Positions 26,595 through 63,081 of a stretch of DNA of 64,000 bases are shown piece after piece. The notes beneath the pieces are model-generated. The model saw only the letters and a list, made by a program, of their open reading frames with translations, made no database searches and was not told the origin of the DNA. The translations under genes and the position numbers were made by a program. The first letter of the stretch is position 1; each line of letters starts with the position of its first letter. Source of the DNA: Vicia villosa (lineage: Eukaryota; Streptophyta; Magnoliopsida; Fabales; Fabaceae); assembly GCF_029867415.1 (NCBI RefSeq), contig NC_081185.1:42540766-42604765 (forward strand). Reading direction: 5' to 3'.

Positions 26595-28438
26595 TGTGAT
26601 ACGGTGAACTGACTTTTAAAGAAATGTCGCGGTAAGCAAGAGTCACCACCGACTTTTATATTATCCAATTTAAAGAAAGGCTAAAAGAACAGAAAAAGAC
26701 CTTTTAAAAAAATTATGAGTTCGGGGGGTAGGTTATACAAAGGGAAGGTTTAAGGCACCCTTTGCATCCATGGTTTTCCATGGGCTCTTAATTGCTTGGC
26801 TCACTTGTTTTCAAAAAATGTTTGTAATGTGAATAAGAAAAGATTTTGAAGAAGAACTTTAGCTTGTAAATAAGCGTAGTCTTTTGAAAAGATTTTTTTG
26901 AAAAGAAGTGGGAAAAGATTTTGAATTTTTGAATTTGAATTGAAAAAGAGCAAGCAATTAATAGCAACTACCCTTAAATTATAAAAATGTTCTTTTAGCT
27001 TTTCAGGGCTGTCCACACCATAGGAGGGTAGGAAGTCCTTTTATTAATTGTAAAGGTTCATCGAAATTATCGTTCTCCATAAGACTGACCCTGCCATAAA
27101 GAGGGCAGGTAGTCTAAGGGAAGGATATAATAGTCATTAATATTTTTAGGCATCATGCGAGGATACCTTAGCAATTGGGACAATCATCGTGTTTTTTCGA
27201 GGCAGCATCGAGGGACTAGATCTCATATGATGATTTCAATAACTTTAAGGCAACTTTTGATTTAGGTATCCTCGGAATTGAGGGACTTGACTATTTTTCA
27301 CAAATAAAGCAACAAGGCAACAAGGCAACAAGAGAGGGTTACCCTAAAGGTGTGTGTGTGGCACAATCACGTGGTTAAATTCGGATATTTATCTTGTAAA
27401 TAATGTTAGCTACATTCGATTAATTATTTTGCACTCCCTAGGATTACTAACCACGCATTTTAAAATAAAGGCAGAATTAAAAGTTCCTACGCTATTACAA
27501 TAAACACCTGCAGGCAGAAAAATAAAGGCGGAAAAGTAAGGCAGAAAAATAAAACTAAACTATTACAATAAACCCTTGCAAGCCTATACACATTTTCTAG
27601 AATTTAAAATAAATAGTAAAAGCGAAACTCAAAAATAGATAATTAAAGTTAAATGCAAAAAATTAAATAAAGGCAGAAATTTAAATAAAGGCAAAAATTA
27701 AATAAATAAACAAGTTTTACCCCCAAGGCTGGGAATTAGCACAAACATACGACAATCATAGAATATGAGGTGAGAAGAGAATGCTTTGAAGAAATTCAAT
27801 GTTTGATTAAAAGGGTAAACCTAAACCTTTGGAGGTTAAAAAAACCTAGTGGGTAAAATAAATCTGCAGGCTAAAAACCTAAGCCTAGGTTAATGAACAA
27901 CACCTACCAGTAATTACTAAGCCTAACTGCACTAAAGTAACATGGCAAGGGAAAGTCAATTGATTAAATGAACCTAATTAATCTAAATTGTTTTAATCTA
28001 AATTCAAATTAATTAGCATAAAAATCTTAATTTGATTAAATTAACCTAAGTCTAAAAATGTTATTGTTGAATTAACCTAAATTAAAAAAAATTAATTATT
28101 TAAACCTAAAACTAAATATTACTCTAAATTATTAATTTAAATTAAAAAAACAAATTAATTTTATAAAAAAAGATTTTAGAGTGGTTTATGAAAATAACAT
28201 GAATTTTATGGTTTGAGGAAAAAAGATTAAGGTTTTCGTAAAAATTTAAATAATAAAACAATAAATCAATAATTAAAAAAATGAATTAAAGAAAAACCAG
28301 GATTTGATCTGATATGGTGTGGCTGGAGGTCCATGGAATGCCAATGAGATTTTCGAAGAGGCAAAAGCTTTATGCCCTAACAATGGTAAATCCATATTCT
28401 TGCACCGCTCCTCTTTAGCGAAAGGAAGTACCTGCAAA

Positions 28439-28494
28439 AATAAGATAAGAATAAGAATAAGAATAATAATAGTATAATAGTAATAATAACAATA

Positions 28495-28565
<71 letters not shown>
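28439..28565 (+). repeat. (TAA)n microsatellite in LTR A
   Basis: About 125 bases are mostly TAA. Shorter versions occupy the same place in LTR B (about 37740-37805) and LTR C (about 52092-52167). The poly-Leu and poly-Tyr frames across it are artefacts. Confidence 0.9.
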
Positions 28566-29908
28566 GTAATAGAAGCAATTAACAAAAATATTACTACTAA
28601 TAATAATTATAAAAAAAAGGTTAGTAATGATAATAGTTACAATAAAAATAAAAAAATAAAAAATATTATAAAAAGGGTTTGGCCTCATATAATTTACAAT
28701 TTTTCCAAGAAATAAAGAAAGGTTCAGAAAGTTAGATCATGGCTAAAAGGGCAAACATTCCCAAGGGTTTTTTTAAAAAAATATTATGATCCTAAAAACA
28801 TAATTTTAAACTAAAATGTAGCAACAATGGCCAAAGCAATGATTTTAAAAAAACAAACCTCAGGTATCATCATTGGCAAAAAATATTGTAATTCTAGATA
28901 AAGTATTTGAAAAAGGTTTTTAAAAAAGGGGAGTTGAAAGAAAGTGTTTTGAAAAATAAAGAGGATGTCAAAAACATAAGAATTTTGATAAAAGGTGGCC
29001 TCAAGTATCATCATTGGCCAATGGCCAAAGGCCAAAAACTAAAGTTAGTATAAAAACATACATAAGGAGCCTCATATGTTAATCATCGGCCAAAAGGTTT
29101 TGAAAACAAAAGGTTTATTTTTAGTTTTGATAAAAAGATTTTTAAAAAGGTTTTTTTAAAAAATAAAAAAAGAAGAAGAAGATGCCTCATAGGAAATCAT
29201 TGGCCAAGAACCAAGCAAAAGAAGAACAAAAGATATTGAAGAAACTCGGTGAATTGTTTTGTATGTAGGAATTAGGAATGAAGAATGGGGTTGAAGGTGT
29301 TAAAAAAATAAGGGTTTAGTTAGGAGAGAGTGAATTGAGAAATTGGTAATTGTTAGTTTTTTTTTTTAAAGTGTAGAACCTAGTGCTATTTATACATAAA
29401 AATTAGGTTTGTAAAAATATTAAAAGAATCAATTAATTAATTAATAAATCATAACTCTAAATCAAATATAATTTGATTTTGATTTCTGAAATATTTAACT
29501 AATTATGTTGATTCTTTCCTAAACTATACAATTATGAAATATTAAAAAATATGAACAAAATCTTTGGAAATCTTTTTTTTTAATGATTTTTGGACTAAAA
29601 TTACAGAAAATAAAGATTTTAATAAAAAATAATATTTTAAAAATGCCTAATAAACAAATACGAAAATAATAATTAAATGATGAAAAAAATACTATTTTTG
29701 ATTTTTTTTTAATAATTTATGATTTTTGGTAATTTTTGACTAAAAAATACATAAAAGTAAAAATTGACTACTTTAAAAAATGCCTATTTAATTAGTTCAA
29801 AAATTAAAATTAAAATGATAAAAAAAATGCAATTTTTGTGATTTTTGAATAAATGGAAATAAAGTTATAACTAAAATTAAAAAGCAAGTAAAAGGGAAAA
29901 TGTTAGAA

Positions 29909-29979
29909 GTGGAATTCGAGCCCGGGACCTCTCGCTCTTATACCTTTTAACCTCAAATCCTTATCAACTGTGCTATGTC
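29909..29979 (-). other. tRNA-like sequence in LTR A
   Basis: On the minus strand, a D-arm-like TAGCACAGTTGATAAGG is followed about 35 bases later by a T-arm-like GGGCTCGAATTCC. These resemble the pol III A and B boxes. It starts about 60 bases inside the LTR. The versions in LTR B (39140-39211) and C (52606-52676) are closer to a tRNA. Confidence 0.5.
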
Positions 29980-30204
29980 AATTATTCAAAATAAAATAAC
30001 ATTTGCAAATATATGAGAGCAAATTTTGGGGTATGACAGCTGCCCCTGTTCAATCTTCTTAAACTTGAGGATGTAGATTGGCTTGTGTGCCTGTCGGAAT
30101 CTGAAGGTAGAAGAAGATTGAACACTATAATACCAAGAAATTTGCCCTTGCTGATGTAGGGACCTTTTTTGGAGATGGGCTTAAAGATGCCATCAGTTGA
30201 TGTA

Positions 30205-30880
30205 TTGACGTGTGTTAGAATGAGTCGTACGTTAGACTGTATCTGTGGTGTCAGAATTAAATTGTTGGCTCGGTTGCCCTGAGCGTCGGGATCATCTAAG
30301 TGAATTGATTGAGATAGGCTTAAAGGATTCCATCTGGATGTTGGGAGTATGAAGTGGGCTTAAAGATGCCACCTGACTTGATAGGTTGAAAGTCAGAATG
30401 AGTCGTACGTTAGACTGTATCTGAAAGGATATACTTAGGATGAGTCGTACGTTAGACTGAATCCACTGTATTGATGAATGTCAAAGTAAGCCGTACGTTA
30501 GGCTGTACTTTATGACGAGTCCTACGTTAGACTATGTCCAATTGCATCGATTGATGTCTGGATAAGCCGTATATTAGGCTGAAGGACGGGTCGTACGTTA
30601 GACCTGGTCTGATTGCATCGATAGATGTCTGGAGTGCTGTACGTTAGGCTGAAGGATGGGTCGTACATTAGACCGGATCCAATTGCATTGATAAACATCC
30701 GGAAAAGCCATACGTTAGGCTGTAGGATAGATCGTACGTTAGACCAGGTTCTCTGTGTTGATAGTTGTCAGAATACACCATACGTCAAGTTGTATCCTAG
30801 GATGAGTCATACGTTAGACTGGATCCTTTGTATTGAGAAGTACTAGAAGGAGCCGTACGTTAGGCTGTATCAGAGCTCGA
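30205..30880 (-). repeat. R1 variable hairpin repeats, interior 1
   Basis: About a dozen imperfect units carry the core GTACGTTA between complementary 4-base arms: AGTC/GACT, AGCC/GGCT or GGTC/GACC. Interior 2 has the homologous block at about 39440-40115. Confidence 0.85.
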
Positions 30881-30904
30881 TGTATTGAGAAGTGTTTGTT
30901 GGAG

Positions 30905-31720
30905 ATTGATCGTGTCAACACCGTTCGTAGTAACTGAATTAGATCTTGGAAAGATGATCGTGTCTACACCGTTCGTAGTAATAGAATTAGATCTCGGAAT
31001 ATTGATCGTGTCAGCACCGTTCGTAGTAACTGAATTAGATCTTTGAAGGATAATCGTGTCTACACTGTTCGTGATGATAAAATTAGATCTTTGAATGTTG
31101 ATCGTGTCAGCACTGTTTGTTGTAACTGAATTAGATCTTGGGAAGATGACCGTGTCTACACCGTTCGTGATGATAGAATTAGATCCTTGTAGGTTGATCG
31201 TGTCAGCACCGTTCGTAGTAACTGAATTAGATCTTGAGAAGATGATCGTGTCTACACCGTTCGTGATGATAGAATTAGATCCTTGTAGGTTGATCGTGTC
31301 AGCACCGTTCGTAGTAACTGAATTAGATCTTGGAAGATGATCGCGTCTACACCGTTCGTGATGATAGAATTAGATCCTTATAGGTTGATCGTGTCAGCAC
31401 CGTTCGTAGTAACTGAATTAGATCTTGGGAGATGATCGTGTATACACCGTTCGTGATGATAGAATTAGATCCTTGTAGGTAGATCGTGTCAGCACCGTTC
31501 GTAGTAACTGAATTAGATCTTGGAAAATGATTGTGTCTACACCGTTCGTGATGATAGAATTAGATCCTTGTAGGTTGATCGTGTCAGCACCGTTCGTAGT
31601 AACTGAATTAGATCTTGGAAGATGATCACGTCTACACCGTTCATGATGAAAGAATTAGATCTTTGAGAGTTGACCGTGTCAGTACCGTTCGTAGTAACTG
31701 AATTAGATCTTTGAAGATTG
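30905..31720 (-). repeat. R2 satellite-like tandem repeat, interior 1
   Basis: Seventeen monomers of about 46 bp alternate between two types, one with GTGTCAGCACCGTTCGTAG and one with GTGTCTACACCGTTCGTGA. Tat/Ogre 3' UTRs are a known source of satellite-like tandem repeats. Confidence 0.9.
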
Positions 31721-35860: not shown

Positions 35861-35880
35861 TCTCCCTAGCAGAGTCGCCA
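35861..35880 (-). other. primer binding site of E5, interior 1
   Basis: Inverted, it reads TGGCGACTCTGC..., four bases from LTR B. A tRNA-Arg primer is reported for Ogre elements. The homologous site of interior 2 is at about 50105-50124 with two or three changes. Confidence 0.8.
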
Positions 35881-37773: not shown

Positions 37774-37805
<32 letters not shown>

Positions 37806-41382: not shown

Positions 41383-41396
41383 AATTCCCCCACACT

Positions 41397-43738: not shown

Positions 43739-44145
43739 TGTCCTATAACAGCCATAAACAAATAGAATGAAGGAACAAGATTAAAATAAGTTCAGAAAAA
43801 TATAAAAATACAAAATTTAATCTAATTAGATGAAATAAGAATTTTGAGAATTTTTTTGGATTTTTTTGACTCTATGAAAACAGTAAAAAATTCATTAAAA
43901 ATAGAAAAACGATGAATTTGGCAATTTTGACTCGAATTCCCCTACTCTTTTAGAGTAAGGGAGTATTAATCGCATGATTTTTCTACTTCCAGTAGGCAAA
44001 AACTTTTTACAATCAAACACAATTTTTTTTCAAAAACTGAATTTTTCGACTCTAAACGCGGATTGGCCAAAACCGTGAGGAAACTATGGCCAAAACACAC
44101 AAACACTACACCTAAGACTCTAATATCAGTTAATATTCACAAGAA
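43739..44145 (-). other. 5' leader of E6
   Basis: AT-rich non-coding sequence lies between PBS and gag. I see no ORF or clear repeat in it. Confidence 0.6.
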
Positions 44146-44163
44146 TCCCCGGCAACGGCGCCA
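44146..44163 (-). other. primer binding site of E6 (tRNA-Asp type)
   Basis: The plus-strand TCCCCGGCAACGGCGCCA is the exact complement of the E1 and E3 PBS, 3 bases from the 5' LTR. Confidence 0.92.
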
Positions 44164-44166
44164 ATT

Positions 44167-45278
44167 TGATCCGCTGTCGCGCGCGGATCAATAACGAGTT
44201 ATTTTGAATAAAACTGTAGATAGCGACAAGTGACTCGAATATCGTCTCACAAGGATTCTTAGTTGTTACTAACCGAATGGAATTCGAATTAAGGGGGGTT
44301 GTTTCGTGTTCAAATTATAAAAAGTTCTTAAAATAAGTGATTCTGGAAATAAGCTGTTTATGAAAATAAGTGATTAATAATTAAGCTAAAACGAATCAAC
44401 CTACTGTTTCGACTCCCAACTTATCATCGATTTATAAAATCCCAATTCCCTAACGGGTTCGTTCGTTCCTATTCGATTATAACAACTACTGACAAGCACA
44501 ATAGAAATTATACGGCAGATGTTCCTGAATTCCGGATTAAGCAAACGGATTAAAACTGTTACGAATTAAGCAAACGCAACTTTGATCGTTCGTGATAATA
44601 TAAAAGCTATGTTAACACGAAATTGATTCAGGATCATCAATCAACAATCGAATTTAAGAAATCTATCCTATAGCAACAATCAAATTAAGCAAATAATTGG
44701 AATTATAGGAAGAATTCAAAGGAAACAAATAATTGGAATTATTAAAACCTCAAAGTGGAATCCGAGTCACAGCAGATTGATCCTTGATGAATTAGTTCCT
44801 CATGATCATACAAAGCAAACTCCAAATTCGTGAATAGTGTAACGTTATTTTTGGCTGTACCGGCCAGACCTTGACTAAAGAGAAAACAAAAGGAAATTCG
44901 GGTCATAACCCAACTGGGTCAAACAAACATCATCCAGGCCCAAAACTAACGACCCAAAACTTATAAAACTAGTGCTTCAGCTTCCAACGCAAATCTGGAA
45001 AATATAGGTTCCGAATCTGACTTCGACTCCAACACGAAAGTCGTAGCTCTCTTTCTTAGCTTTCCGGCGATTATTAGAACGCCTCAATCGGATTCCTGGA
45101 ACTCCAGTTATGATTGTTTCAGTGAAAGCTGTCAAAGCTGAAAATAAAATACGAAAATTAAATAACGATAAAAATAAACTGAAATATAAAAACATTGTAA
45201 AACATAAAAATAAATAAAGAAAAACATAGAAATGCTTAGTAAAAATATGAAAGAATGTGCATTAAAATGCACTGATCA
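44167..45278 (-). repeat. 5' LTR of E6
   Basis: The ends are TGATCC...TGATCA on the plus strand. It is almost identical to 40271-41382, with two changes near 44876-44880 and one near 45242. Confidence 0.92.
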
Positions 45279-45960
45279 ATTAGATCTTTGAAGGATGATC
45301 GTGTCTACACCGTTCGTGATGATAAAATTAGATCTTTGAATGTTGATCGTGTCAGCACTGTTCGTTGTAACTGAATTAGATCTTGGGAAGATGACCGTGT
45401 CTACACCGTTCGTGATGATAGAATTAGATCCTTGTAGGTTGATCGTGTCAGCACCGTTCGTAGTAACTGAATTAGATCTTGGAAGATGATCGTGTCTACA
45501 CCGTTCGTGATGATAGAATTAGATCCTTGTAGGTTGATCGTGTCAGCACCGTTCGTAGTAACTGAATTAGATCTTGGAAGATGATCGTGTCTACACCGTT
45601 CGTGATGATAGAATTAGATCCTTGTAGGTTGATCGTGTCAGCACCGTTCGTAGTAACTGAATTAGATCTTGGGAGATGATCGTGTATACACCGTTCGTGA
45701 TGATAGAATTAGATCCTTGTAGGTAGATCGTGTCAGCACCGTTCGTAGTAACTGAATTAGATCTTGGAAGATGATCATGTCTACACCGTTCGTGATGATA
45801 GAATTAGATCCTTGTAGGTTGATCGTGTCAGCACCGTTCATAGTAACTGAATTATATCTTTGAAGATGATCGTGTCTACACCGTTCGTGATGATAGAATT
45901 AGATCTTTGAGAGTTGACCGTGTCTGTACCGTTCGTAGTAACTGAATTAGATCTTTGAAG
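45279..45960 (-). repeat. R2 satellite-like repeat, interior 2, remainder
   Basis: Fourteen monomers here plus three at 40134-40270 equal the seventeen of interior 1. The first bases, ATTAG, are the E6 TSD. Confidence 0.88.
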
Positions 45961-48401: not shown

Positions 48402-48881
48402 TCATTGTTGTGGAGCTGGTGTAGAGATAAGAACTGCCCCCACAAATTGGTTGCGTTCATTAAGGCCTTTCTGGTTATGCGCAACATCAATCATATGAGG
48501 TTCCTTAGGTGAATTGAAATCAGTGATCTTGTCATCGATTAAATCTTGGATCTTATGCTTCAATGGTCCACAATCCTCTGTATCATGACCAGGACTATTC
48601 GACTGATAAGCACATCTTGTGTTGTACTTGTACCCAAGAGCAGGATTGGCAGGACTTGAATATGGAGGCAATAGGGTTATCATGTTCTGATTGAGCAATT
48701 GTTGCAGAATTTGAGACAATGGCATGTGCAATGGAGTAAACTTTGCCGCATATGCTGATCCTTTTTCTTCTGGGTTAACAAGGTTTTTCAATTCGTCTTG
48801 CCCCTTGACCAAGTTCAGACTCAAAACTTGGAACCGGATATTCTGAGCCTGAAGATTTTTGACTGATTGCTCGAGATCCAT
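48402..48881 (-). CDS. shortened gag of E5, interior 2 (open)
   Basis: This 159-residue ORF starts MDLEQSVKNLQAQN, as in E2 gag, then joins directly to MPLSQILQQLL and the knuckle-like CAYQSNSPGHDTEDC. The central gag domain is deleted. It could encode a small RNA-binding Gag fragment, or be a by-product of keeping the packaging region. It lies between the leader hairpins (49137-49293) and a second knuckle segment (48110-48401). The intact frame contrasts with interior 1, where codon 5 is a stop. Confidence 0.6.
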   Translation of the reverse strand: MDLEQSVKNLQAQNIRFQVLSLNLVKGQDELKNLVNPEEKGSAYAAKFTPLHMPLSQILQQLLNQNMITLLPPYSSPANPALGYKYNTRCAYQSNSPGHDTEDCGPLKHKIQDLIDDKITDFNSPKEPHMIDVAHNQKGLNERNQFVGAVLISTPAPQQ

Positions 48882-49136: not shown

Positions 49137-49293
49137 GGTTAGAGGAAAATAAATCCTCTTTCCCCTTGATAGGTATGATGTCTCTGAACTGGAAGGCATA
49201 CGGCAAGAGGAAAATAAATCCTCTTGCCCCTTGATAGGTGTAAAGTCTCTGAATTGGAAGACATATGGCCAGAGGAAAATAAATCCTCTTGCC
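49137..49293 (-). repeat. leader hairpin repeats of E5, interior 2
   Basis: Three units of 65 bp carry the constant loop AAATAAA. They are homologous to 34892-35048, with a few changes in the arms. Confidence 0.85.
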
Positions 49294-50378
49294 CCTTGAT
49301 GAGAATTTAGTCCTTTGATAAGGGCACCTGAAATTGTGCGTCCTAAATTCCAAGATCCTTGAAAGGGTTAGTTAACATGTGATGTTATGTTGTCATGATG
49401 TCATGCGAATGCAATACAATAGGTAAAGCATAAGGTAATAAGGACGAATGTCCTACAAGCAAATCCTGCAAGGAAATAGAAGGGTTAGTAGCACACACAA
49501 GCAAGTCACACAAATGTCCTTAGGTTTAAAGGCTTTGCATGGTGTTTGACTAGGTAACTACCCGTCCCCAAAGGTACTTCTATGGATAAGGATGATATCA
49601 GCAACGGGTTCTACCAGTGACCCAGAATTGTCAGCCCCTTCTATAGCACCCTCGGACATGATACATTCGCATCATGCAATGATACTTTGAGAAAGAACCT
49701 ATTTGAATTGTAGTATCGGGTAGCGACTAGGCTCTCAACATTTTTCAAGAGTAGCCCCCCCACTACTTCCTAAAGGCCAAGATGGGTTAAAGGTAACTAA
49801 AGGTCCTTGAGCTCCGGCGCACCCACAGGCACATACATAGACCTCCCTCATTTGAGAAAGGTGTGCATATAGCTATGGAGTCCTAACTCAAGCGTGAACT
49901 TCATATTGACTCATCTCCCACATATGTGAAAGAGGCCGCCATGACTATGCCACTCCTATCTTAATTGTACTTGAATCCGGGTATAGTATTCGTCCTTCAT
50001 TTATTTCCCAAAGCGTCCCTGAAAAATAAAGCAAGCAAAGCAAACAATAGAAAACATTTAAGTGATCCAAAACTTTTAAGGTAACCCCTCTTTTATTCTA
50101 AAATTGTCCCCAACAGAGTCGCCAATTCTGTAATACGGTGAACTGACTTTTAAAGAAATGTCGCGGTAAGCAAGAGTCGCCACCGACTTTTATTTTATCC
50201 AATTTAAAGAAAGGCTAAAAGAACAAAAAAAGACCTTTTAAAAAAATTTTGAGTTCGGGGGGTAGGTTATACAAAGGGAGGGTGTAAGGCACCCTTTGCA
50301 TCCGTGGTTTTCCATGGGCTCTTAATTGCTTGGCTCACTTGTTTTCAAAAAATGTTTGTAATGTGAATAAGAAAAGAT

Positions 50379-50487
50379 AAACTGGCTACTCCTTATGATA
50401 TGCCACCTCAACCCCCGATCTAAGAGCATTTGAGAACATCTCCGGCATTGTCGAGGGAAACTCAGATAACCGGAATGATTGGCCTTC
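50379..50487 (+). other. 109 bp insert of unknown origin in LTR C
   Basis: LTR A and B read AAAAGAT-TT-TGAAGAAG here. LTR C has 109 unrelated bases instead. The insert is less AT-rich than its surroundings, has no terminal repeats and no visible TSD, and matches nothing else in the window that I can see. Confidence 0.75.
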
Positions 50488-52119
50488 TGAAGAAGAACTT
50501 TAGCTTGTAAATAAGCGTAGTCTTTTGAAAAGATTTTTTGAAAAGAAGTGGGAAAAGATTTTGAATTTTTGAATTTGAATTGAAAAAGAGCAAGCAATTA
50601 ATAGCAACTACCCTTAAATTATAAAAATATTCTTTTAGCTTTTCAGGGCTATCCACACCATAGGAGGGTAGGAAGTCCTTTTATTAATTGTAAAGGTTCA
50701 TCGAAATTATCGTTCGCCATAAGACTGACCCTGCCATAAAGAGGGCAGGTAGTCTAAGGGAAGAATATAATAGTCATTAATCTTTTTAGGCATCATGCGA
50801 GGATACCTTAGCAATTGGGACAATCATCGTGTTTTTTCGAGGCAGCATCGAGGGACTAGATCTCATATGATGATTTCAATAACTTTAAGGCAACTTTTGC
50901 TTTAGGTATCCTCGGAATCGAGGGACTTGACTATTTTTCACAAATAAAGCAGCAAGGCAACAAGAGAGGGTTACCCTAAAGGTGTGTGTGTGGCACAATC
51001 ACGTGGTTAAATTCGGATACTTATCTTGTAAATAATGTTAGCTACATTCGATTAATTATCTTGCACTCCCTAGGATTACTAACCACGCAGTTTAAAATAA
51101 AGGCAGAATTAAAAGTTCCTACGCTATTACAATAAACACCTGTAGGCAGAAAAATAAAGGCGGAAAAGAAAGGCAGAAAAATAAAACTAAACTATTACAA
51201 TAAACCCTTGCAAGCCTATACACATTTTCTAGAATTTAAAATAAATAGTAAAAGCGAAACTCAAAAATAGATAATTAAAGTTAAATGCAAAAAATTAAAT
51301 AAAGGCAGAAATTTAAATAAAGGCAAAAATTAAATAAATAAACAAGTTTTACCCCCAAGGCTGGGAATTAGCACAAACATACGACAATCATAGAATATGA
51401 GGTGAGAAGAGAATGCGCGTTTGAAGAAATTCAATGTTTGATTAAAAGGGTAAACCTAAACCTTTGGAGGTTAAAAAAACCTAGTGGGTAAAATAAATCT
51501 GCAGGCTAAAAACCTAAGCCTAGGTTAATGAACAATACTTACCAGTAATTACTAAGCCTAACTGCACTAAAGTAACATGGCAAGGGAAAGTCAATTGATT
51601 AAATGAACCTAATTAATCTAAATTGTTTAATCTAAATTCAAATTAATTAGCATAAAAATCTTAATTTGATTAAATTAACCTAAGTTTAAAAATGTTATTG
51701 TTGAATTAACCTAAATTTAAAAAAATTAATTATTTAAACCTAAAAATAAATATTACTCTAAATTATTAATTTAAATTAAAAAAACAAATTAATTTTATAA
51801 AAAAAGATTTTAGAGTGGTTTATGAAAATAACTTGAATTTTACGGTTTGAGAAAAAAAGATTAAGGTTTTAATGAAAATTTAAATAGTAAAACAATAAAT
51901 CAATAATTAAAAAAATGAATTAAAGAAAAACCAGGATTTGATCTGATATGGTGTGGCTGGAGGTCCATGGAATGCCAATGGAATTTTCGAAGAGGCAAAA
52001 GCTTTATGCCCTAACAATGGTAAATCCATATTCTTGCACCGCTACTTTTAGCGAAAGGAAGTACCTGCAAAAATAAAAATAAGATAAGAATAAGAATAAT
52101 AATAGTAATAATAACAATA

Positions 52120-52168
<49 letters not shown>

Positions 52169-52605
52169 TTGATTTTGATTTCTGAAATATTTAACTAATT
52201 ATGTTGATTCTTTCCTAAACTATACAATTATGCAATATTAAAAAATATGAACAAAATCTTTGCAAATCTTTTTTTTTTAATGATTTTTGGACTAAAATTA
52301 CAGAAAATAAAGATTTTAATAAAAAAATAATATTTTAAAAATGACTAATAAACAAATACGAAAATAATAATTAAATGCTGAAAAAAAATACTTTTTTTGA
52401 TTTTTTTTAATATTTTATGATTTTTGGTAATTTTTGACTAAAAAATACATAAAAGTAAAAATTGACTACTTTAAAAAATGCCTATTTAATTAGTTCAAAA
52501 ATTAAAATTAAAATGATGAAAAAATGCAATTTTTGTGATTTTTGAATAAATGGAAATAAAGTTAGAACTAAAATTAAAAAGCAAGTAAAAGGGAAAATGT
52601 TAGAA

Positions 52606-52676
52606 GTGGGATTCGAGCCCGGGACCTCTCGCTCTTGAGCCTTTTAACCTCAAATCCTTACCAACTGTGCTATGTC
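52606..52676 (-). other. best-preserved tRNA-like sequence in E5 (LTR C)
   Basis: On the minus strand, TAGCACAGTTGGTAAGG is followed by an anticodon-arm-like TTGAG...CTCAA stem with a 9-base loop, then GGG-CTCGAAT-CCC, a T-arm with the usual 7-base loop. The match to a tRNA is better than in LTR A and B, so this may be the ancestral form. Confidence 0.5.
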
Positions 52677-52754
52677 AATTATTCAAAATAAAATAACATT
52701 TGCAAATATATGAGGGCAAATTTTGGGGTATGACACACATTAATTATTAAAAGT

Positions 52755-52818: not shown

Positions 52819-54178
52819 TTATGGAGGGTATTTTCTCTTCCACACCTGGTTGCTTTTCACCTCCGAAACCAAAAACTCATGATGATGAAAAGTATGGACA
52901 TCTTTTCTCTTCAATTCACTTTCGTCATTCATCTTTTCACCGTTCTTTTTATTAGAACATTTGGTGGCTATAGGAGTTGGTTCCACCCGAGAGGCTATGC
53001 TTGACACTTTTTCTTGGAGCTGTTTAGGCTTTTTGTCTTTTTCCTCACTTTCTGTCATACCACCAGAAGTTTGATCATTTACAACCGCCCTATGTTTCTT
53101 AACTCCTAACATCTTCAAGGTTACTTCTTCATCAAATGATTTCAGCGTTAGTGTCCCTTTTTCAATGTCGAAGTTGCAGCGACCTGTCGACAAAAATGGT
53201 CTCCCAAGAAGGATAGGAGTTTCTTCGTCTTCCGGAATGTCCATGATGTGGAAGTCAACAGGGAATACAAACTTATCAACTTCCACTAGTACATCTTCAG
53301 CTACCCCATAGGATTTCTTAATGGTGTGATCGGCGAACCTTAATTGTGTCTTACTTTCACTAATCTTTTCCAATTCAAGCTTTTTGAAAATGGACAGAGG
53401 CATTAAACTCACACTAGAACCAGAATCGAGGAGTACCTTTTTAAATGTTATATTCTTGATAGTGCATGGTATCGCCACCGCCCCAGGGTCTTTCCTCTTT
53501 ATTGGTATTTTTCTTGCTGACGAGACTATACCACACTTCTCAGTTGAAATTTTTGATTCCCCTCCCAGTGATCTCTTTCTCGCCATCACCTCCTTCATAA
53601 ATTTCCTATACAAGGGCATGTGCTCAAGTGCTTCGAAGAAGGGTAGATTTACCTCTAACTTTTTAAACAAGGCAGTGAACTTCTCGAAGTCTTTCTCTTT
53701 TGAATTCTTCTTTGTCACTCTGGAAGGAAAAGGCAGTTTGATCACCGGTTCAACAACTTCCTTATTTTTTTCTTCAAATGGTTTACCCGGCGGTACCACA
53801 ACCTCTGGCTCTTTTGGATTTTCTCTTATTTCCAAATCCACCTCTATTACCATGGGGTCATCTATTTCCTCTTTTTCTTTTTCCGATTCTGCCACTTTCT
53901 TACTTCTTGTAGTAACATCATTAATCTTCTCTTGGACTTTCGGATTTTTCACGGTTGCGCTCGGAAAGGTACCTTGTGCTTACAGAGTGAGATGCTGTGC
54001 TATTTGACCCACTTGAACTTCCAGATTTTTGATTGAAGATGTGGTGTTCCTGTGGTTGTTTATGGTCTCTTCTTGAAACTGAGAGCATTGTCCAGCCAAT
54101 CTCTCAATAGCTACTTCCCACTCTGCTTTCTGAGGATTTTATTGTTGATCTTTCCAAGCGAAGTTGGGATGATTCTTC
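52819..54178 (-). pseudogene. E4 gag-protease fragment
   Basis: The open part (52819-53952, about 377 residues) has an FPSRVTKKN / FEALEHMPLYRKFMKE block and a protease with [14 protein letters not shown] and ILLGRPFL, close to E1. Reading further upstream on the minus strand, the E1-like frame continues to 54178 with TAA at 53980-53982 and TAA at 54139-54141. At 54178 it is cut by E7 within the [12 protein letters not shown] segment. After protease it runs into a polar tail and stops before the post-pol hairpin, with no RT. The true product would have been gag-protease only. The GTG at 53952 is not a real start. Confidence 0.82.
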
Positions 54179-56137
54179 TGTAGCAACCTGCCCTAAAAAA
54201 TAGACTTGTAGAGTCGCCACCTATTCTGAAGGGCGAATAGGAAACCCTACGCAGTTAAGAGATTCAGGGTAAGTTATTATAATCAGGTTGAGGGAAGGTG
54301 TTAGGCACCCTCAACCCTTTCCTAAGGTTTGTTCTAAGGTAAAGGTTTTACGGCCAAAATTTAGAGGTTTAATAGCTAAGGTAATGAATAGGGCGAAAAT
54401 TGAGATTTGAAAGTGAATTGAAATTGTGAGGGGGGAGACTCGCCATGTTACCAAGTGCCTACGTATCTCCTTATGGAGAATCAGAGTCAACGTAGTTCGT
54501 GCACAGGGTTGTACGCCTTAGAATTGATTATGGAGGTGTTTGAAGGCTTTTTGAATAGCCTATCGTAGATTTTTGAAATGCGAAGTTCGAAGGTATTTTG
54601 AATTACCTTATCGTAGTTTTGAACATTGCAGTGTTGAAGAGATGAAAATTCGTAGTGTCGTGGTTTAGTGTGTTTTGAATGTTTTGGGCGTACAACCCTG
54701 ATTTAATATGTCACCGTTAGTTGCGATGATCAATAGATTTGATCATTATAGTTAACGGATTAATGGGGGCATTACTGGTTACTCTAATCGATAGATTCGA
54801 TCGTCGCGGGCAGCAAATTGAATGTATTTTAGATTTGTAATATTTTTATCTCTTGTCTAATACGACTAATAGATTTAGTCGGGTCGAGAAGAGAATTAAT
54901 TAAGGGTTAATGTTCTGCCAAATGGCAATGGGATCGGGCAAACCCTAATACTTACACCTTTATAGGGTTTTTGTGATTTAATATTAATTAAAGTTAATTA
55001 AATAAATTAAATCGATATAATCGAAAAAATCGGGAAATCTAATTCTAAACCCTAATTACTAACCTAATACTAATTTAATTTCTAATCCTAAGTAAATTAA
55101 CTAAACTTAAATTTAATTAATTAAACCTAAATACAATTAACCAAATCTAATCCTAATAATTAAATAATAATACAAAAATAATATATAAAACCTGGCAGTG
55201 ATCCTATACAGCGCGCTTGGGAAGGTGTATGGTAGAGGTGCATTTTGATCCCTTTGATATGGCTTTGCAATTGATCTGGTGGCTCATAACCGAAGGTGCA
55301 TCGTAGGGATTTATTGATGGCGTATACTGGATCCTGTGGAGGCGTTGCAATCCAGTATTGCTTGGTCTTTGAAAGTCTACAATGGGGGAGCAACAACAGA
55401 TCTTCAGATCCGTCTTCGTGGAGATCCAATGGTGAGGACATGACGGTCCATGGTAAGGATGCGCGCTCACCATACTCTGGATCTACAAGTTTTATCAAAG
55501 AAAACAGAGAAAAAAACAAGCAAAACACGCCCACGGCCAGAATCGAACTCGCGGCGTATAAGTCATGAACATATACCCTTGCCATCTAAACTGGACCACG
55601 TTAGTGATATTGACACGAAACAGAATGAATATATAAAAAGTATTGTCGTGGAAATTCAAATGAAACCAATTTCGTGCCCAGCATTATATCATCTTCAACC
55701 TGCGTTTTTTCAAAGTATACCGACTTTTAGCAACAACTTTAAAACGTACTATAGTTAATCCTTATAATTAATTCTATTGACCCTAATAAAACTAATAATC
55801 CTAATTATTTAACTTAATGACCATAATATCAAAATATTAATAATAATTGATAATAGGTAATTAATCCTTAGTTAGTAACAATAATATTATTTGATGAAAT
55901 GGAAAAATGATAAAATAAACAAATGAGGAGAATAAAAAAAAACAAATGGCCCAACATCGAATTAGATCTTAAGTATTTGCTATTCATACCTCCATTTCGT
56001 TTTAATCAATTTATAAGGGCATTTTATAAGAGATCGAGTTTAATAATAGGTATACTAAACCCTATGGCTCCTAATTTTTAACGCCCTTAATAAATTGACA
56101 GATGTAAAGTATATCGGGTAAATTTTGGGGTATGACA
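54179..56137 (-). repeat. 3' LTR of E7 (Tat/Ogre-like), 1959 bp
   Basis: Inverted, it begins TGTCATACCCCAAAATTT and ends CAGGTTGCTACA. The inner features (AGAGTCGCCACC, a GGTGTTAGGCACCC phrase) parallel those of the E5 LTRs, but the rest is diverged. No second copy is in the window. The 5 bases before it are TCTTC, a candidate TSD without partner. Confidence 0.8.
55530..55602 (-). other. tRNA-like sequence with CAU anticodon in the E7 LTR
   Basis: On the minus strand, an A-box-like TGGTCCAGTTTAGATGG is followed by an anticodon-like arm with the 7-base loop TTCATGA (T33, CAT, then G) and a T-arm-like GCGAGTTCGATTCTGGC with the loop TTCGATT. The anticodon stem has one mismatch and the T stem one. 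It resembles a decayed tRNA-Met. It is not homologous in detail to the E5 segments. Confidence 0.55.
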
Positions 56138-56599
56138 GTTGCCCCTGTTCAAACTTCTTAAACCTGAAGAGTCGGATAGGCACGTCTGCCTATCGTGATC
56201 TAAAGGTAGAAGATGATTGAACACTGAGAATGCCTTAAAATTTGCACTTGTTGGGAAGAATTTCTGTGGGAGATGGGCTTACAGATGCCACCCAAGGTAA
56301 ATACCCCTCCTTTTTAGAATGTGAAGCAGATGCTTTCGAAAGGAACCACTCGCTTTGATGGTAGTACGGCCTAAAAAGGCAACCTGAATTTTATGCAATG
56401 TTATGATGCATGCGATGTATGATGCAGTGAGCTTCTCAAAATAAATGAGAGCGATGTATGTATATGCCTTATGTATAAATAAGGTATGCAGTTGAATGAT
56501 GCATGACTGTTAGTTATGTTAGTTGAAATATGTTAGTAACTTTGAAAAAAGAAAACAAAACCTTTGTGTGTTATTGATGATTTTTGGAGAAGATCACTG

Positions 56600-57780
56600 C
56601 CGAGGGACTAACGTGATAAACCCAAAAGGATCACTTGCTATAGCGCTAGCAAGCTTTCGTAGTTTGTGAATCCCACTTACTATAATTCTAGTAAGTTTCC
56701 GTAGTTTGTGAACCCCACTTACTATAGTTCTAGTAAGTTTCCGTAATTTGTGAACCCCACTTACTATAGTTCTAGTAAGTTTCCGTAGTTTGTGAACCCC
56801 AAAAGGATCACTTGCTATAGCTCTAGCAAGTTCACCTGCACCATTTGGATCATTTGCCCTGGTTCGGACAAATTTCACCTGCACCATTTGGATCATTTGC
56901 CCTGGTTCGGACAAATTTCACCTGCACCATTTGGATCATTTGCCCTGGTTCGGACAAATTTCACCTACACCATTTGGATCATTTGCCCTGGTTTGGACAA
57001 ATTTCACCTACACCATTTGGATCATTTGCCCTGGTTCGGACAAATTTCACCTACACCATTTGGATCATTTGCCCTGGTTCGGACAAATTTCACCTGCACC
57101 ATTTGGATCATTTGCCCTGGTTCGGAAAAATTTCACCTGCACCATTTGGATCATTTTCCCTGGCTCGGACAAATTCACCTGCACCATTAGGAATTATTTG
57201 CTATAGTTCTAGCAAACTTACCTGCACCAAAAGAATTACCTGCCATGGTTCTGACAAGCGTACCTGCATAGGATGAATCAATTGCTATAGTTTTAGCAAA
57301 CTTACCTGCATGGAAAAGATTCACTTGCTATAGCGCTAGCAAACTCTTGCAGTTTGTAGGTAACCCACTTACTATAGTTCTAGTAAGTCGTCGCGGTTGG
57401 TATACCCACTCACTATCGTAGTTTGAGTAAGCTTATCGAAGATGGTATGACCCACTTACTATAGTTCTAATAATTCGTCGCAGTTAGCCATACCTGCTTA
57501 CTATTGTAGTTTCAGTAAGTTTATCGTAGACGGTGTGGCCCACTTACCATAGCTCTGGTAAGTCGTCGCAGTTAGTCACACCTACTTACTATCGTAGTTG
57601 GAGTAAGCTTATCGTAGATGGTATGACCCACTTACTATCGTTCTAGTAAGTCTTCGCGGTTAGCCATACCTGCTTTCTATCATAGCTGGAGTGAGTTTAT
57701 CGTAGATGGTATGACCCACTTACTATCGTTCTAGTAAGTCGTCACAGTTAGCCATACCTACTCACTATCGTAGTTTGAAT
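56600..57780 (-). repeat. E7 hairpin repeat families a-c
   Basis: Family a (56600-56828) and family c (57186-57780) carry cores such as ACTTACTA-TAGTTC-TAGTAAGT, ACTTGCTA-TAGCTC-TAGCAAGT and ACTTACCA-TAGCTC-TGGTAAGT. Family b (56829-57185) has eight 43 bp units plus a ninth degenerate one with ATTTG...CAAAT. Repeat length and arms vary while pairing is mostly kept. The open frames here are repeat artefacts. Confidence 0.88.
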
Positions 57781-57794
57781 AATCCCAAAAGGAT

Positions 57795-58000
57795 CGCTTG
57801 TTTGGAGACTCACGACTCGAGGGTCGGAGAAAATAGCATGTCAAATATTCACGACTCGCGGGTCGGAAAGGAAACGATATGTTTAGAAACTCACGACTCG
57901 AGGGTTGGAAAACACACCTATCGCAACACGAGGGTTGGAAACTCACGACACGTGGGTCAGAAAACACACCTATCACAACACGAGGGTTGGAAACTGGGCT
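57795..58000 (-). repeat. E7 hairpin repeat family d
   Basis: Several short units contain CGACTC-GA-GGGTCG, CGACTC-GC-GGGTCG or, with a paired change, CAAC-ACGAG-GGTTG. Confidence 0.75.
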
Positions 58001-58227
58001 TTTGTGGTATGTGAATGCAATAGATGATATGCATATGCTAATGCGTATGTATGTATGCTGATGTAATCCCAAGATCTCCTTAAACCCATTGAACCTGTTT
58101 AATCCATGTTTGCCCCTACACCATGGCTATGCTTATGCTGGCTTGGTAATGTGGATAATGCTTATGCTTATGCATATGCGTAGTTTGTTTATGAGTGAAA
58201 TGAACATCAAGGTTGCTATCATCGGTA

Positions 58228-58530
58228 AGGTTACCGGGATACATCAATCAGGTGATCGGGTGGATATCTCCGTAAGGTTGCTATCATCAGTAAGGTTACT
58301 AGCACCGGTAAGGTTACCGGAAAGCATCAATCAGGCGATTGGGAAGAATATCTCAGTAAGGTTACTGGCATCGGTAAGGTTACTGGAAAACATCAGTCAG
58401 GCGATTGGGAAGAATATCTCAGAAAGGTTGCTGGCATCGGTAAGGTTACCGGAAAACATCAATCAGGCGATTGGGAAGAATATCTCAGTAAGGTTACTGG
58501 CATCGGTAAGGTTACCGGAAATCGGGCGGG
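58228..58530 (-). repeat. E7 hairpin repeat family e (66 bp units)
   Basis: Units of 66 bp contain GGTAAGGTTACC cores; CCGGTAA-GG-TTACCGG and CAGTAA-GG-TTACTG are alternative stems. Because 66 is divisible by 3 a long frame stays open across it, which is not evidence of a gene. Confidence 0.82.
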
Positions 58531-58627
58531 CAATGTAGCTTAGCACCAAAGTTTTGAATTGGATGTTTTGATGTATGTGATAATGCTTATGCTCATGCAT
58601 ATGTTGATTGATGTAACAAGTGGAATG

Positions 58628-58980
58628 AAATAATGTCTTCTATAAGACTACCTGAAAAGGTTTCCGGAATGGATATGAACATTTGTCTTAAAGAAGACTA
58701 CCTGAAAAGGTTTTTAGAAAGGATAGCAATTTGTCTTAAAGGAGACCACCTGGAAAGACTGAAAGATGTCTAAAAAGACTACCTAGAAAGGTTCTTAGAA
58801 AAATAATGTCTTAAAGAAGACTGCCTAAAAAGGTTCTCGGAAAATAATGTCTTAAATAAGACTACCTGAAGAGGTTCCTTGCAAGGATGACAATTTCTCT
58901 TGAATAAGACTGCTCGAGGAGGCTCCAAGAAAGGATCGTGAGTTTTGTCTTAAAGAAGACTACCTAAAAAGGTATGGTGT
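58628..58980 (-). repeat. E7 hairpin repeat family f
   Basis: Units alternate GTCTT-AAAG-AAGAC (variants GTCT-AAAA-AGAC, GTCTTA-AA-TAAGAC) with ACCT-GAAA-AGGT. Confidence 0.78.
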
Positions 58981-59261
58981 AATGTATCAACTAGTGTATG
59001 TAATGCATGACTTATATGTATTTGCATGATTCTCCAATGATAGGTTGTTGATGACCAAAGCGTATATAGCTTGCTGGAGTTGTAGGTTTGTTTGATAAGT
59101 TGGGGTGTGATGCTAGCGCGACTTCCCAATACCTATTTTTGGAACTTTGAAGATCGTAGTCAGGGGAAAGATTCGTTCGATGTTGTAAAGTGTGAGAACG
59201 CCTTTTCCTTTTGTTATGCGTCTTGCCCCAGTTTGGCTTTTTTTTGAAATACTACACTCCT

Positions 59262-59375
59262 TTAACCTTTTAAGGTTCTCCACACCTTTAACCTTTTGAG
59301 GTTCTCCACACCGTTAGTCTTTCGAGGTTCTCCACACCTTTAGCCTTTCAAGGTTCTCCACACCTTTAGCCTTTG
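59262..59375 (-). repeat. E7 hairpin repeat family g
   Basis: About five units of roughly 29 bp have the core AACCTT-TT-AAGGTT and variants, separated by CTCCACACC. Confidence 0.8.
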
Positions 59376-61929
59376 AGTTGTTTACCTTATGGATTTGATA
59401 TCCAATGCCCCAATGTTTAGTGGAATAAGGTGCCTATGATCTCCACGCCAAGAAGGAAGTGCCCTGAGAAATAATCTTGTCGTATGCTTCGACGTTTAGA
59501 TTGAAGGGTATGTCATTGATCTCCAGGATATGGAGGACTATCCATAGTGTTCTATCCTTGTGAATTTGAATTCTTCACATGTTTGACATGCCCCTGTTTG
59601 TTATTGCTTCGAGATGTGCCCCTAAGTCGATTGAATCTTAGGAAGAATGCCCCTAGTAAATAGGATTTTTGATTGTATGCCCCTGTAACCCTTAAAATTT
59701 TGCCCCTGTTTAGGAGAACCCCCTGGATGTGGTTCCCCCCATTCCAGAGTCTTTATTAGAAATGATTGCCTTTGATTAAACAATTTCGAGATCTCCTTGA
59801 TGCTAAGTGTATACTCGTAGATAGCGTTGTACCCTTTGAAAAGTAACTCCAATGCGATGCGTATGCAAGTTTTGAAATCGAAATCCGTTATGAATTAGGA
59901 CTGGATAGTTAGAAATGAATGCTTGAAGAAGCGCAGTGGTTAGAAATAGTTTTAACAAACCTAGGAGTCAGTATAACAAAATCCTGCTTAATATGCTTTC
60001 GTAGTTAACCTTGCCTCAATTAGGACTTTTGAATGTTGTAACTTGGCCTGGTTCATGTTTTAAGAAACAATGGACATAAGGCTCAAAATTTTATTTATCC
60101 CACCCCTTTCTCCTTGATGTTCTCCAAATCCTAAAAATTCGCCTAATCCAACGAATGTGCTTTGTTTGTAAAGAGAATCGTTTCAGTTTTGATGTTGAGC
60201 GGAAGCCTTAGTAGAGATCTAAGCAGTTGTAAAGCTTCGATGGTTTAGCAGTCACAAGATTATCCTTTGTATTTCGCCTTTGTTTTTATCCCTTATTTTT
60301 GCCTAAGTCATTTTGTTTTCTTTTATGGAAATTTTCCTTTTGACTTAGCGGGCGTTTTTCCTTTGAAAGCTCCTTCTGAGATTTGATCCTTGGATATTGA
60401 ATATTGTGACTGCCATGTTGATTTTGATTTGTAAGCTACGACTTTGATACTTCCTCGATCTTGGATGATGTAATGAGGAAGAAAATTGTTGTGAACGTCA
60501 TCCCCATTGCTCCCTCATTCTTGGATGAATGCGAGGAAGAAGATGTGCTTGAACTTTTGCTTTGCTTGATCCTTTGCTTAAACCTTTGCTTCATTGATTG
60601 ATTCTCTTGGCAGCCAAAATACATCATTGAATTAATTGAGATCTACCCTGCCCTTGGTTAAAATCAAGGTTTATTTGAAAAGTAGAAACAAGCTCCAACT
60701 CCTGGCTAGAGGGGGTAACGAGGGATTAACATCCTTATATCTCCATTGTTTAGGAATTGAAACAATGTCTGTACATCATCGGTTCGGTCTTACCTTGAAA
60801 GCATATGTTTAGCGAGATTCAGTTATTTGTATTCGTCATTCTCCCTTAAGTTTGTTAATAATCCTAAATTGAAAATAGAATAGAAGTGCGCGAGTGGAAA
60901 GTCGTAGTAGTGAGCGAATGAAGCGAATGAATTGATTCCAAAACCTGCATGGTCATCCCATTAGAATTGCTAATCCGAAGGTACCACTTTTATCCTGAGT
61001 AACACTTAGCGATCGTAAGTAAGGGTTGAAATTTTGACATGATAAATCCTATTGATCCTAGGGAAAATCTCCTTTGTAAATCCGTTGACCTTGTTTCACT
61101 CCTTAGTTCATGGACTCGTAGAAGTGAAGGGTAACCTCAAATTCTCCTTAGGCACGTCAAACCTATCGGGAATAAATTGTTAGCGGTGGGTTTTCGTCGT
61201 ATCGGAACTTCATGAGTTTCCTTTGACTGAACCTATTTTGCTTTTTCTAAGGATAGTATCACACCGTTTGTAACCTCTAGGGTTTGTAGATTGATAAAGG
61301 AAATCTATGACCCTTTTGCCCCTTGATGGGGGAGTTAACCTATGCGCCTTCCCTCCATCGTAATTATGCATCTTTGTTCAGGATATTGCCCCAATTGGAC
61401 TAGTCATCGCCCCAGGTTATCGCAGAGCGTCCTTGTAAGTTTGATATGTTCTAAGATGGACCCCTTAATGACTAGATACCCCTTGAGTGTATCTATGAGG
61501 GAACTCTTTTGTTGAACTAATCCTTGCTTGACGATAACCTTTTTTGTACGTACAATCCTATTATGAAAGGGCATGGGCATGTAGCTGGCACGGCGAAAGG
61601 CATCCCCTTATTTCTTTTGAAAGCTAAACTCATTCCCAATAATTTATCCTCCTTTCTCCATAGTTTATGATCTTCTTCATGAGTCTCGGGAAATTGGCTA
61701 GCATGGAAGGTGTGGATGCGGGCGAAGATAGAAATGCAAATGTAAATGTATGAAAATGCAAATGCATGCGTGTGCGAGAGACTCCTTGTATTATAACTCC
61801 GTGTATGCAATGCAGACGTGTGACATATAATCCTAGGGATAGCCTTAGAGGAGACATTAGACCCTAGTGAAATCCTTGCAAGGTAGATGTTATGACACAC
61901 CAATGAAAATCCCTTAAATCGGGGAGTAT
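59376..61929 (-). other. E7 interior without clear repeats or genes
   Basis: I see no coding homology. Two blocks (about 59940-60120 and 60710-60790) match E5 at about 32870-33020 and 33480-33560. That supports common descent of the two families. Confidence 0.65.
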
Positions 61930-62505
61930 GCAGAAAGTAGCGGCTGGAGACCGTTCAAGACAGTCACCAAGTCTCATGGCCATCGAGAGGCCGTTCGACG
62001 TGTACTTGCGAAGTTATCCCTCGTGGGAAGGTTCTCCATGTGGAACACAACCTATCTAAGGACGATATCGGATGAAAAGAAATCCCTACAGGCTAGGGAT
62101 GAAGGGTGTATAGATGGAAATCCAAATCAGTTAGAGGGTGCGCAGGAATAAGCACGGGGTGACCGTTCAAGACAGTCAATGAATCGCATGGCCATCGAGA
62201 GGCCAATTGACGTGCGTAAACGAAAATGTCCTTCGTGGGAAGGATACGATTTTAGAAATAGAATCCCTACAGGCTAGGGAATACGTAGATGAAAGCACGG
62301 GGTGACCGTTCAAGACAGTCACTGGATCTCATGGCCATCGAGAGGCCAATTGACGTATGCTAACGAAGACGTCCTTCGTGCGAAGGATGCGATTTTAGAA
62401 ATAGAAACCCTACAGGCTAGGGGATACGTAGATGTAAGCACAGGGTGACCGTTCAAGACAGTCATTAGATCTCATGGCCATCGAGAGGCCAATCGACGTA
62501 CGCTA
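61930..62505 (-). repeat. E7 leader repeats, 143 bp period, four hairpins per unit
   Basis: The phrase GTGACCGTTCAAGACAGTCA starts at 62159, 62302 and 62445, 143 bases apart, with an earlier diverged unit near 61945. Each unit holds GTGAC...GTCAC, TGGCC...GGCCA, TCCTT...AAGGA and CCCTA...TAGGG. By position relative to the 3' LTR this is the 5' part of the element. Confidence 0.82.
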
Positions 62506-63081
62506 AACCCTAATGAGATTGAGGATAGTGATTATGAGATTAAGGAGAGTGATAATGTGGTTGAGGAGAGCTCTAGTGAGAAAAGAGTGGAGATTGAGAA
62601 AAATCCACCAACACCATCTGAAAGTGAGGTTGTAGAAGAGGTAGAGAGGGAAGCACCTATTATTATTCCTTTTCCCTATACCCCACCGATTTCTTTCCCG
62701 CAAAATTTTATGAAAGCTAAGGTAGACTCCAAATCCATAATGTATGTGAAGGTATCAGAAAATATCCACACTAATGCACCTTTATTTGAAGTCTTGCATA
62801 AAAAGAGAAATTTAAACGACCATGAAACTAAGAATATCGTTAGTGATAAGAGGGTAAGGTTAATCTTTGAGGTGGTGGATAATATCACTAATCCCGAACT
62901 TGAAAAGCTGATACTCAGGATCGATCCAGAACCGCCACCACGATTTCAAAAGAATGAACCACCCCACAGAAGAAAGAAAAGAAAAGGTGAGGGATATGTG
63001 AGATGGCTTGATAAGTGGCCATGTAAAACGACATTTGCTAAAAGTTCAACCGAGGAGTCATTCTCGAGAGAACCACCTTGA
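62506..63081 (+). pseudogene. E8 gag/protease-linker-like ORF, 5' truncated
   Basis: The frame is open from the break at about 62506 to TGA at 63081. It encodes an acidic start, a PIIIPFPYTPPISFP segment comparable in place to the LPFPTRN segment of E1, and a basic C-terminal PHRRKKRKGEG. Similarity to Athila gag is weak and mainly positional: it is followed by the GACGTTAAAC string and AGGCAA hairpin that follow pol in E1. The GTG at 62557 need not be a start. No protease motif is visible. Confidence 0.5.

Follow-up and report, generated by a model that had tools for sequence, protein, structure and literature searches.

In two related Ogre-like retrotransposons on the minus strand, arrays of tandem stem-loops that would lie in the non-coding 3′ region of genomic RNA carry matched changes in the two arms of their stems, which suggests that the fold matters. 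The arrays are a to d of one element, designated E7, and X71 of a second element; both elements lie in the 64-kb window (the whole stretch of DNA that was analysed). We put at roughly one half the probability that the stems of a to d and X71 have been maintained in element RNA, and that the other arrays of the two elements (e to h and X95) are tandem repeats without demonstrated structure.

Plant LTR retrotransposons are nested throughout the window. The second Ogre-like element (26595-52735, minus strand) has TG..CA LTRs and is flanked on both outer sides by CACAT (26590-26594 and 52736-52740), a 5-bp target duplication. Comparison of LTR edges and motifs places its 3′ LTR at 26595..30038 and further LTRs at 35885-39270 and 50129-52735, all on the minus strand; the layout of the region 26590-52740 is LTR-int-LTR-int-LTR, three LTRs being common to two internal regions. 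A 5-kb element with LTRs 99.7% identical (40271-45279) is nested in the array region of the second internal copy. A putative PBS-like sequence starts with TGG 4 nt from the LTR end (35863..35880, minus strand; second copy at 50107-50124). The PBS of Ogre elements corresponds to tRNA-Arg.

An ORF survey confined to uninterrupted reading frames revealed intact gag-pol neither in the second element nor in E7. The only ORFs of at least 150 aa in 26595-52740 are 42767-43738 (gag, part of the nested insertion) and 48402-48881, for which Pfam gave no match, and there are none in the E7 part, 54179-61900. Because a gag-pol with a second RNase H (aRH, between RH and INT) is not found in these elements, they are classed as Ogre-like elements that lack an intact coding region and not as Ogres proper. 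Among ten ORFs scanned, RVT_3 was detected in 13156-15429 alone; this minus-strand ORF encodes RT, RNase H and the second RNase H-like domain (RVT_3), as expected for a Tat-clade coding region. Elsewhere in the window, an LTR pair with 99.9% identity (84-1420 and 10428-11765) surrounds a long gag-pro-RT ORF and marks a recent insertion. Palindromic repeats of the GACACGG...CCGTGTC type (364-475, 7285-7486, 10708-10819 and 25053-25092) recur in an Athila-like element, both within its LTRs and beyond the 3′ side of its coding ORFs, and also near 25 kb. Among the 25 relatives listed for the ORF at 62449-63081, the 7 that bear a species name come from Trifolium repens and Lathyrus oleraceus, so that the DNA probably derives from a legume related to them; the ORF adjoins 143-bp repeats (61918-62506) with short inverted repeats (GGCCatcgagaGGCC, CCCTAcaggcTAGGG).

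E7 has a single LTR within the window, its 5′ end being beyond the window or lost, and no PBS-like sequence of E7 was found within the window. Its 3′ LTR (54179..56137, minus strand) starts in the sense direction with TGTCATACCCC and ends with ...GCTACA, the left edge having been placed from TG..CA; the start motif has a match at 54210. The end motif TTTTGGGGTATGACA occurs in four exact copies in the window, at the E7 LTR edge and in the three LTRs of the second element. Beside the LTR is a candidate polypurine-tract-like stretch (56138..56150, minus strand), which falls in a stretch shared by homology with the second element (29990-30192). By its sequence signals the orientation of E7 is the minus strand, and the reverse complement was therefore used to judge pairing in RNA; reading the arrays on the plus strand was abandoned, as PBS-like sequences and LTR edges show minus orientation. 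The preliminary description assigned the arrays to the 3′ part of a Tat/Ogre-type element, leaving the strand unstated; the LTR edges and the PPT-like and PBS-like sequences agree with that location.

Short tandem arrays lie just upstream (in the sense direction) of the 3′ LTR in both elements, the Tat/Ogre-type placement, with ∼180 bp from LTR edge to first hairpin in the second element (30218 versus 30038) and 496 bp in E7 (56633 versus 56137). The E7 arrays are situated between blocks 56373-56463 and 59992-60133, which correspond to 31755-31841 and 32894-33032 of the second element; the interval that holds them in E7 (56463 to 59992) is represented in the second element by ∼1 kb in which the sole repeat is a short one of 16 bp. 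X71 and X95 lie between 30192 and 31755, the E7 counterpart of this interval being 83 bp (56290-56373). Since the arrays occupy different places in the homologous 3′ region, as judged from block order, we take the E7 arrays and X71/X95 as separate expansions. No Rfam match at gathering score was found in the E7 region (54000-62600, the only region searched), and an exact 20-base pattern had no match in viral contigs.

Arrays that Tandem Repeats Finder keeps apart, with periods of 42, 43, 42 and 88 bp, have one homologous hairpin in common. On the minus strand these are ‘a’ (five units, 56633..56831; sense RCTTRCTA-loop-TAGYAAGT), ‘b’ (eight units, 56852..57174, homologous with a and c), ‘c’ (four units, 57196..57344) and the 88-bp array ‘d’ (57367..57783), where five d1 units, counted with a to c, alternate with five d2 units. 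The flanks ‘ggatc’ and ‘ACCTGCACC’ connect units at 56810, 56852 and 57196. Because the hairpins are homologous and the flanks common, a, b, c and d1 were handled as a single family, abcd1, so that the ‘unrelated families’ of the preliminary description are, for a, c and d1 (with b, which it had left out), one hairpin family. The 22 units of abcd1 comprise 15 distinct hairpins, identical repeats having been removed before counting.

In abcd1 both sides are altered at four of the eight pairs, and 116 of 120 cells (96.7%) pair in sense RNA versus 103 of 120 in the antisense. Throughout subfamily b one pair reads C-A on the plus strand, which corresponds to U-G in the sense RNA; with b removed, 97.7% of 88 cells are paired and none of 500 shuffles reaches the covariation score. 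For the full family covariation in the sense orientation is 0.567 versus 0.332 in shuffles, with 0 of 500 shuffles as high, while slid registers give at most 0.154. We also rebuilt the substitutions of each family on a neighbour-joining tree, which for tandem units that recombine is an approximation only, and re-placed the changes of each column randomly in 1000 simulations. On this null the covariation of abcd1 is 3.30 versus 0.42 (p=0.001), and its paired events (double WC-to-WC changes) number 7 versus a null mean of 0.62, a count reached in 0 of 200 simulations. Diversity in arm, loop and flank is 0.31, 0.26 and 0.53, and loops that had been described as largely constant are thus only fairly so in abcd1.

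The X71 array (14 hairpins, 30218..30866, minus strand; second copy at 39450-40098) has a loop, UAACGUAC in the sense direction (plus-strand gtacgtta), that is seen in most units with few changes. Arms are AGUC/GACU, AGCC/GGCU or GGUC/GACC in 11 of the 14 hairpins, and the units at 30635, 30730 and 30776 have mismatches; removal of identical repeats before counting left 11 distinct hairpins. In units of the GUC type an outer helix, GGAY/RTCC, follows beyond a small internal loop, with one pair covarying and the outermost pair unpaired in 5 of 10. The alignment was restricted to this type, the GCC type being left out, and held eight first-copy units and the three second-copy units that differ, 10 distinct in all; 90% of its 80 cells are paired, none of 500 shuffles reaches the covariation score and slid registers score lower. 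With no structure supplied, RNAalifold predicts the stems of these GUC-type units, the outermost pair excepted. On the tree-based null covariation is 2.07 versus 0.24 (p=0.001), with 2.5 paired events versus 0.30 expected (0 of 200). Diversity is 0.35 in arms, 0.14 in loops and 0.53 in flanks. Loop variability is therefore below that of the flanks in both families and clearly below that of the arms in X71. When the two internal regions of the second element are compared, all six arm-base differences seen (two in X71, two in X65 and two in the outer X71 helix, where three units were compared) are one-sided, a small number, as expected of changes in dead copies.

The other arrays give no such picture. 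On the minus strand of E7 these are family ‘e’ (57813..57989), with 4-bp arms and with hairpin and covariation not above chance; family ‘f’ (58222..58518), palindromes with a 2-nt centre; family ‘g’ (58635..58973), with short arms not above chance; and family ‘h’ (59255..59374), 26-bp units AACCTT..AAGGTT. A single covarying pair is present in each of e, f and g, in no case exceeding the null, and d2, g1 and h have none; p values on the tree-based null are 0.24 (e), 0.19 (f), 0.35 (g2) and 1.0 (d2, g1 and h), and the observed score is reached by 193 of 500 shuffles for e and by 80 of 500 for f. Half-pairs or breaks are seen in e (57894, CGAC/GTTG; 57946, CGAC/GTCA), in f (58270, 58288, 58372 and 58420) and in d2 (57409, 57673 and 57761), the five units of which show no paired changes. 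Changes in h break pairing in sense RNA, not in antisense, its one-sided cells numbering 0 sense versus 5 antisense, the opposite lean to abcd1. With four to seven distinct hairpins each, d2, e, f, g and h are small samples that are not distinguishable from independent mutation. In the second element the neighbouring 95-bp array X95 (30899..31718, minus strand) has no comparable hairpin (p=0.95), and thus a hairpin rule is not universal; e, f, g, h and X95 give no support within the same elements, so structure cannot be a requirement for all arrays. A 65-bp array, X65 (34892-35048 and 49137-49293), located towards the 5′ end of the second element, has a 10-bp hairpin, GGCAAGAGGA-aaataaa-TCCTCTTGCC (p=0.001), in which one pair differs between units on both sides, not significantly.

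Hairpin presence was assessed for 18 units by comparing the best hairpin of each consensus unit (plus strand, loop of at least 3) with 1000 dinucleotide shuffles. The p values are 0.014 for a, 0.37 for b, 0.15 for c and 0.07 for d; 0.74 for e, 0.15 for f, 0.55 and 0.42 for g and 0.048 for h (26-bp unit); 0.79 for X71, the ungapped 4-bp arms of which are not above shuffled units; and, for the rest, 0.012 (81-bp), 0.002 (22-bp) and 0.15-0.29 (four further units). The proposition that all arrays are hairpins was rejected, as e, g, X95 and ungapped X71 do not beat shuffled units. The preliminary description had held each unit to be an inverted repeat, which goes beyond chance for a and its kin at best, with e, g and b failing against shuffled units. 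The arm variants that it had listed are all present: CTTACTA/TAGTAAG (e.g. 56676-56695), CTTGCTA/TAGCAAG (56634-56653 and 56811-56830) and CTTACCA/TGGTAAG (57543-57562); CGAC/GTCG (57813 and 57852) versus CAAC/GTTG (57924 and 57976); and CCGGTAA/TTACCGG (58305) versus CAGTAA/TTACTG (58354 and 58486). That such changes are paired is borne out in a to d, both on the tree and against a shuffled control (run here on the window arrays), and not in e and f, where the values are those given above and where, as in d2, half-pairs and breaks occur. Arm changes in a to d are accordingly more paired than independent mutation would make them, a statement that does not extend to d2, e, f, g and h.

The tree test covered eight families (abcd1, X71, d2, e, f, g1, g2 and h), and event counts covered ten, X65 and 81a (an array of an Athila-like element, plus strand) having been added. 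The pooled covariation of the eight families (p=0.001) owes its significance to abcd1 and X71; covariation above the tree-keeping null is not seen in d2, e, f, g1, g2, h, X65 or 81a. Paired events over the ten families total 11.4 versus 1.76 expected (sd 1.18; the largest of 200 simulations was 5); paired changes are nevertheless in the minority, with one-sided ones making up about 51 of the 63 events. Two coarser measures, pairs changed on both sides and further pair types, are not above shuffles in abcd1 and X71. Independent events are few, at least about seven in these two families together, and with a single exception the pairs that covary are of the transition type.

Predicted folding leans to the sense strand in the same two places. 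The fold predicted for 56625-56835 (minus, sense) has a z of −4.99, with 0 of 200 shuffles as low, and consists partly of pairing between units; that for 30430-30620 (sense) has a z of −3.41, with 1 of 200 shuffles as low. Sliding-fold mean z is −1.30 sense and −0.39 antisense in a to d (19 windows) and −1.23 and −0.60 in X71 (10 windows), compared with sense and antisense controls from non-array internal sequence of 0.13 and −0.09 in E7 and −0.13 and −0.01 in the second element. The E7 LTR, which contains no array of this kind, likewise has a modest folding advantage on the sense strand (−0.64 versus −0.18); e to h show no strand difference (−0.63 and −0.75), and X95 gives −0.10 sense and 0.91 antisense. 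A kissing-loop arrangement was dropped, since by eye the loops are not consistently self-complementary in abcd1 or X71.

Selected RNA structure and fold-back copying of an arm, the two options named in the preliminary description, are the right ones to weigh, and paired change far exceeds independent mutation in a to d and X71. In fold-back copying the nascent strand, during reverse transcription or DNA replication, folds back and one arm is templated from the other, with no selection; the mechanism is known to create and repair hairpin arms (passages of PMC8794818 and PMC8604942), and we think it a rather unlikely explanation here. It accounts well for the near absence of half-converted pairs (mixed alleles in 1 of 116 cells at two-state pairs, with 6 other mismatches) and for the neighbouring pairs 7 and 8, which both differ between b and c. 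Unit 57238 is, however, a stepwise intermediate, with pair 7 changed, pair 8 not and a sense G-U at pair 6, and no inversion of the loop, which copying sometimes predicts, was seen by eye among the listed units. Wobbles separate the two explanations, and thereby offer a test between them: among the one-sided breaks of abcd1, 6 events give a G-U in sense RNA and none gives an antisense wobble, while 4 produce mismatches of other kinds (13, 0 and 4 as cells, 5 of the 13 sense wobbles being in the outermost pair). One-sided changes tolerated as sense G-U are expected for RNA hairpins, and a bias of 6 to 0 is not predicted by copying; the wobble bias of abcd1 thus favours selection on RNA over arm-copying. 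The argument is limited to one family, because the bias vanishes when the ten families are pooled (13.3 versus 13.0 in plus-strand letters, where 81a, on the plus strand, adds 2 to the second figure), and this lack of bias speaks for copying.

Descent from a handful of early variants, with tandem duplication mimicking covariation, is in our opinion unlikely. The sample of 15 (abcd1) and 11 (X71) distinct hairpins would suit it, and variants do behave as subfamily markers, b having its own states at pairs 7 and 8 and a and d1 mostly sharing pair 5. Against it, p is 0.001 in both families on a null that keeps the tree, and all four combinations are present at pairs 5 and 7 of abcd1, as they are at both pairs that covary in X71 units of the GUC type, so that changes either recurred or recombined. 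Non-stem column pairs, moreover, mostly fall below stem pairs, which take ranks 1, 2, 3 and 5 among 903 column pairs in abcd1 and ranks 1 and 3 among 666 in X71, the exceptions being non-stem pairs at rank 4 and rank 2, respectively.

Tandem palindromes with a fixed spacer would look alike if they were dyad-symmetric sites conserved as DNA for a dimeric DNA-binding protein, and half-sites would presumably change together; yet several arm sequences occur within one array, hardly to be bound by one protein, and both the wobbles of abcd1 and the folding are biased to the sense strand, which makes this reading very unlikely. A shared mutable context, in which methyl-cytosine deamination strikes arms with the same neighbours alike, would suit the predominance of A-T/G-C transition pairs but predicts many half-changed pairs, contrary to the rarity of mixed alleles noted above, and pair 8 of abcd1 (A-U to C-G) is a transversion pair, so that we give it hardly any credence.

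We therefore return to maintenance of the stems in element RNA, for which we infer selection acting while the elements were still copying: compensatory change would have preserved stem pairing in sense RNA by way of G-U intermediates, and arms and loop would have stayed less variable than the flanks. Units may have been multiplied in tandem by aberrant strand transfer, and hairpins favouring strand transfer are a possible cause of the amplification. Since loops that are less variable than flanks suit a binding partner, the likeliest, if tentative, use of multiple stem-loop copies would be to present the loop to one, e.g. Gag for packaging, which would be relevant to elements without intact gag-pol. 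If the reading is true, covarying stems in two independent arrays give these repeats a testable role as RNA structure. A wider proposition, which is possible though doubtful, is that Tat/Ogre elements repeatedly and independently evolve multivalent 3′ stem-loop arrays with a near-constant loop and a compensating stem, that the arrays are functional RNA, e.g. trans-packaging signals of non-coding elements, and that legume satellites derived from such arrays began as RNA-structure modules.

Hypervariable tandem repeats in the 3′ UTR of Tat/Ogre retrotransposons were reportedly described by Macas et al. in 2009, and a 2006 study, by its title on Y-chromosome tandem repeats, is said to be a source for hairpin-like structures in plant tandem repeats; the sentence citing the latter does not itself tie such structures to Tat/Ogre arrays or to covariation, unlike here. 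Tandem repeats at the Tat/Ogre 3′ position are well known, and template switching is an established general route to arm-copying. The 3′ repeats of Tat/Ogre elements are a recognized source of plant satellites, according to the main text of PMC7004042, and the question on which covarying stems bear is the origin of the repeats and any activity they have. The arrays described there resemble ours in being short, in having monomers that vary and in lying 3′ of the coding region, in legume Ogre elements; unlike here, the main text mentions no hairpin, secondary structure, inverted repeat, dyad or stem-loop. In soybean Gmr9/GmOgre the interval that separates the coding region from the LTR holds five families of interleaved minisatellites (PMC3305785), and Retand, a Tat-clade lineage, has tandem arrays between pol and the 3′ LTR (PMC11963269); the available text of each differs from our description in containing no hairpin, secondary structure, inverted repeat or stem-loop (nor, in the former, ‘palindrom’). 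A literature search, with most subscription literature outside its reach, turned up no account of hairpins that covary in Tat/Ogre arrays, and there is none in the available text of PMC7004042, PMC3305785, PMC11963269, PMC6317226, PMC3485330 and PMC12477314. Other mentions of such terms deal with probe or primer design, or with palindromes generally. Template-switch maintenance of hairpins explains paired arm change without selection, as would be needed here, but in the passages concerned of PMC8794818 and PMC8604942 the subjects are RNA genes and yeast coding DNA, not retrotransposon arrays. The stem-loop modules of enod40 (PMC10578108) belong, unlike ours, to a host non-coding RNA, and ‘covariation’ is absent from the main text; like the arrays described here, they are stem-loops related to tandem repeats and transposable elements.
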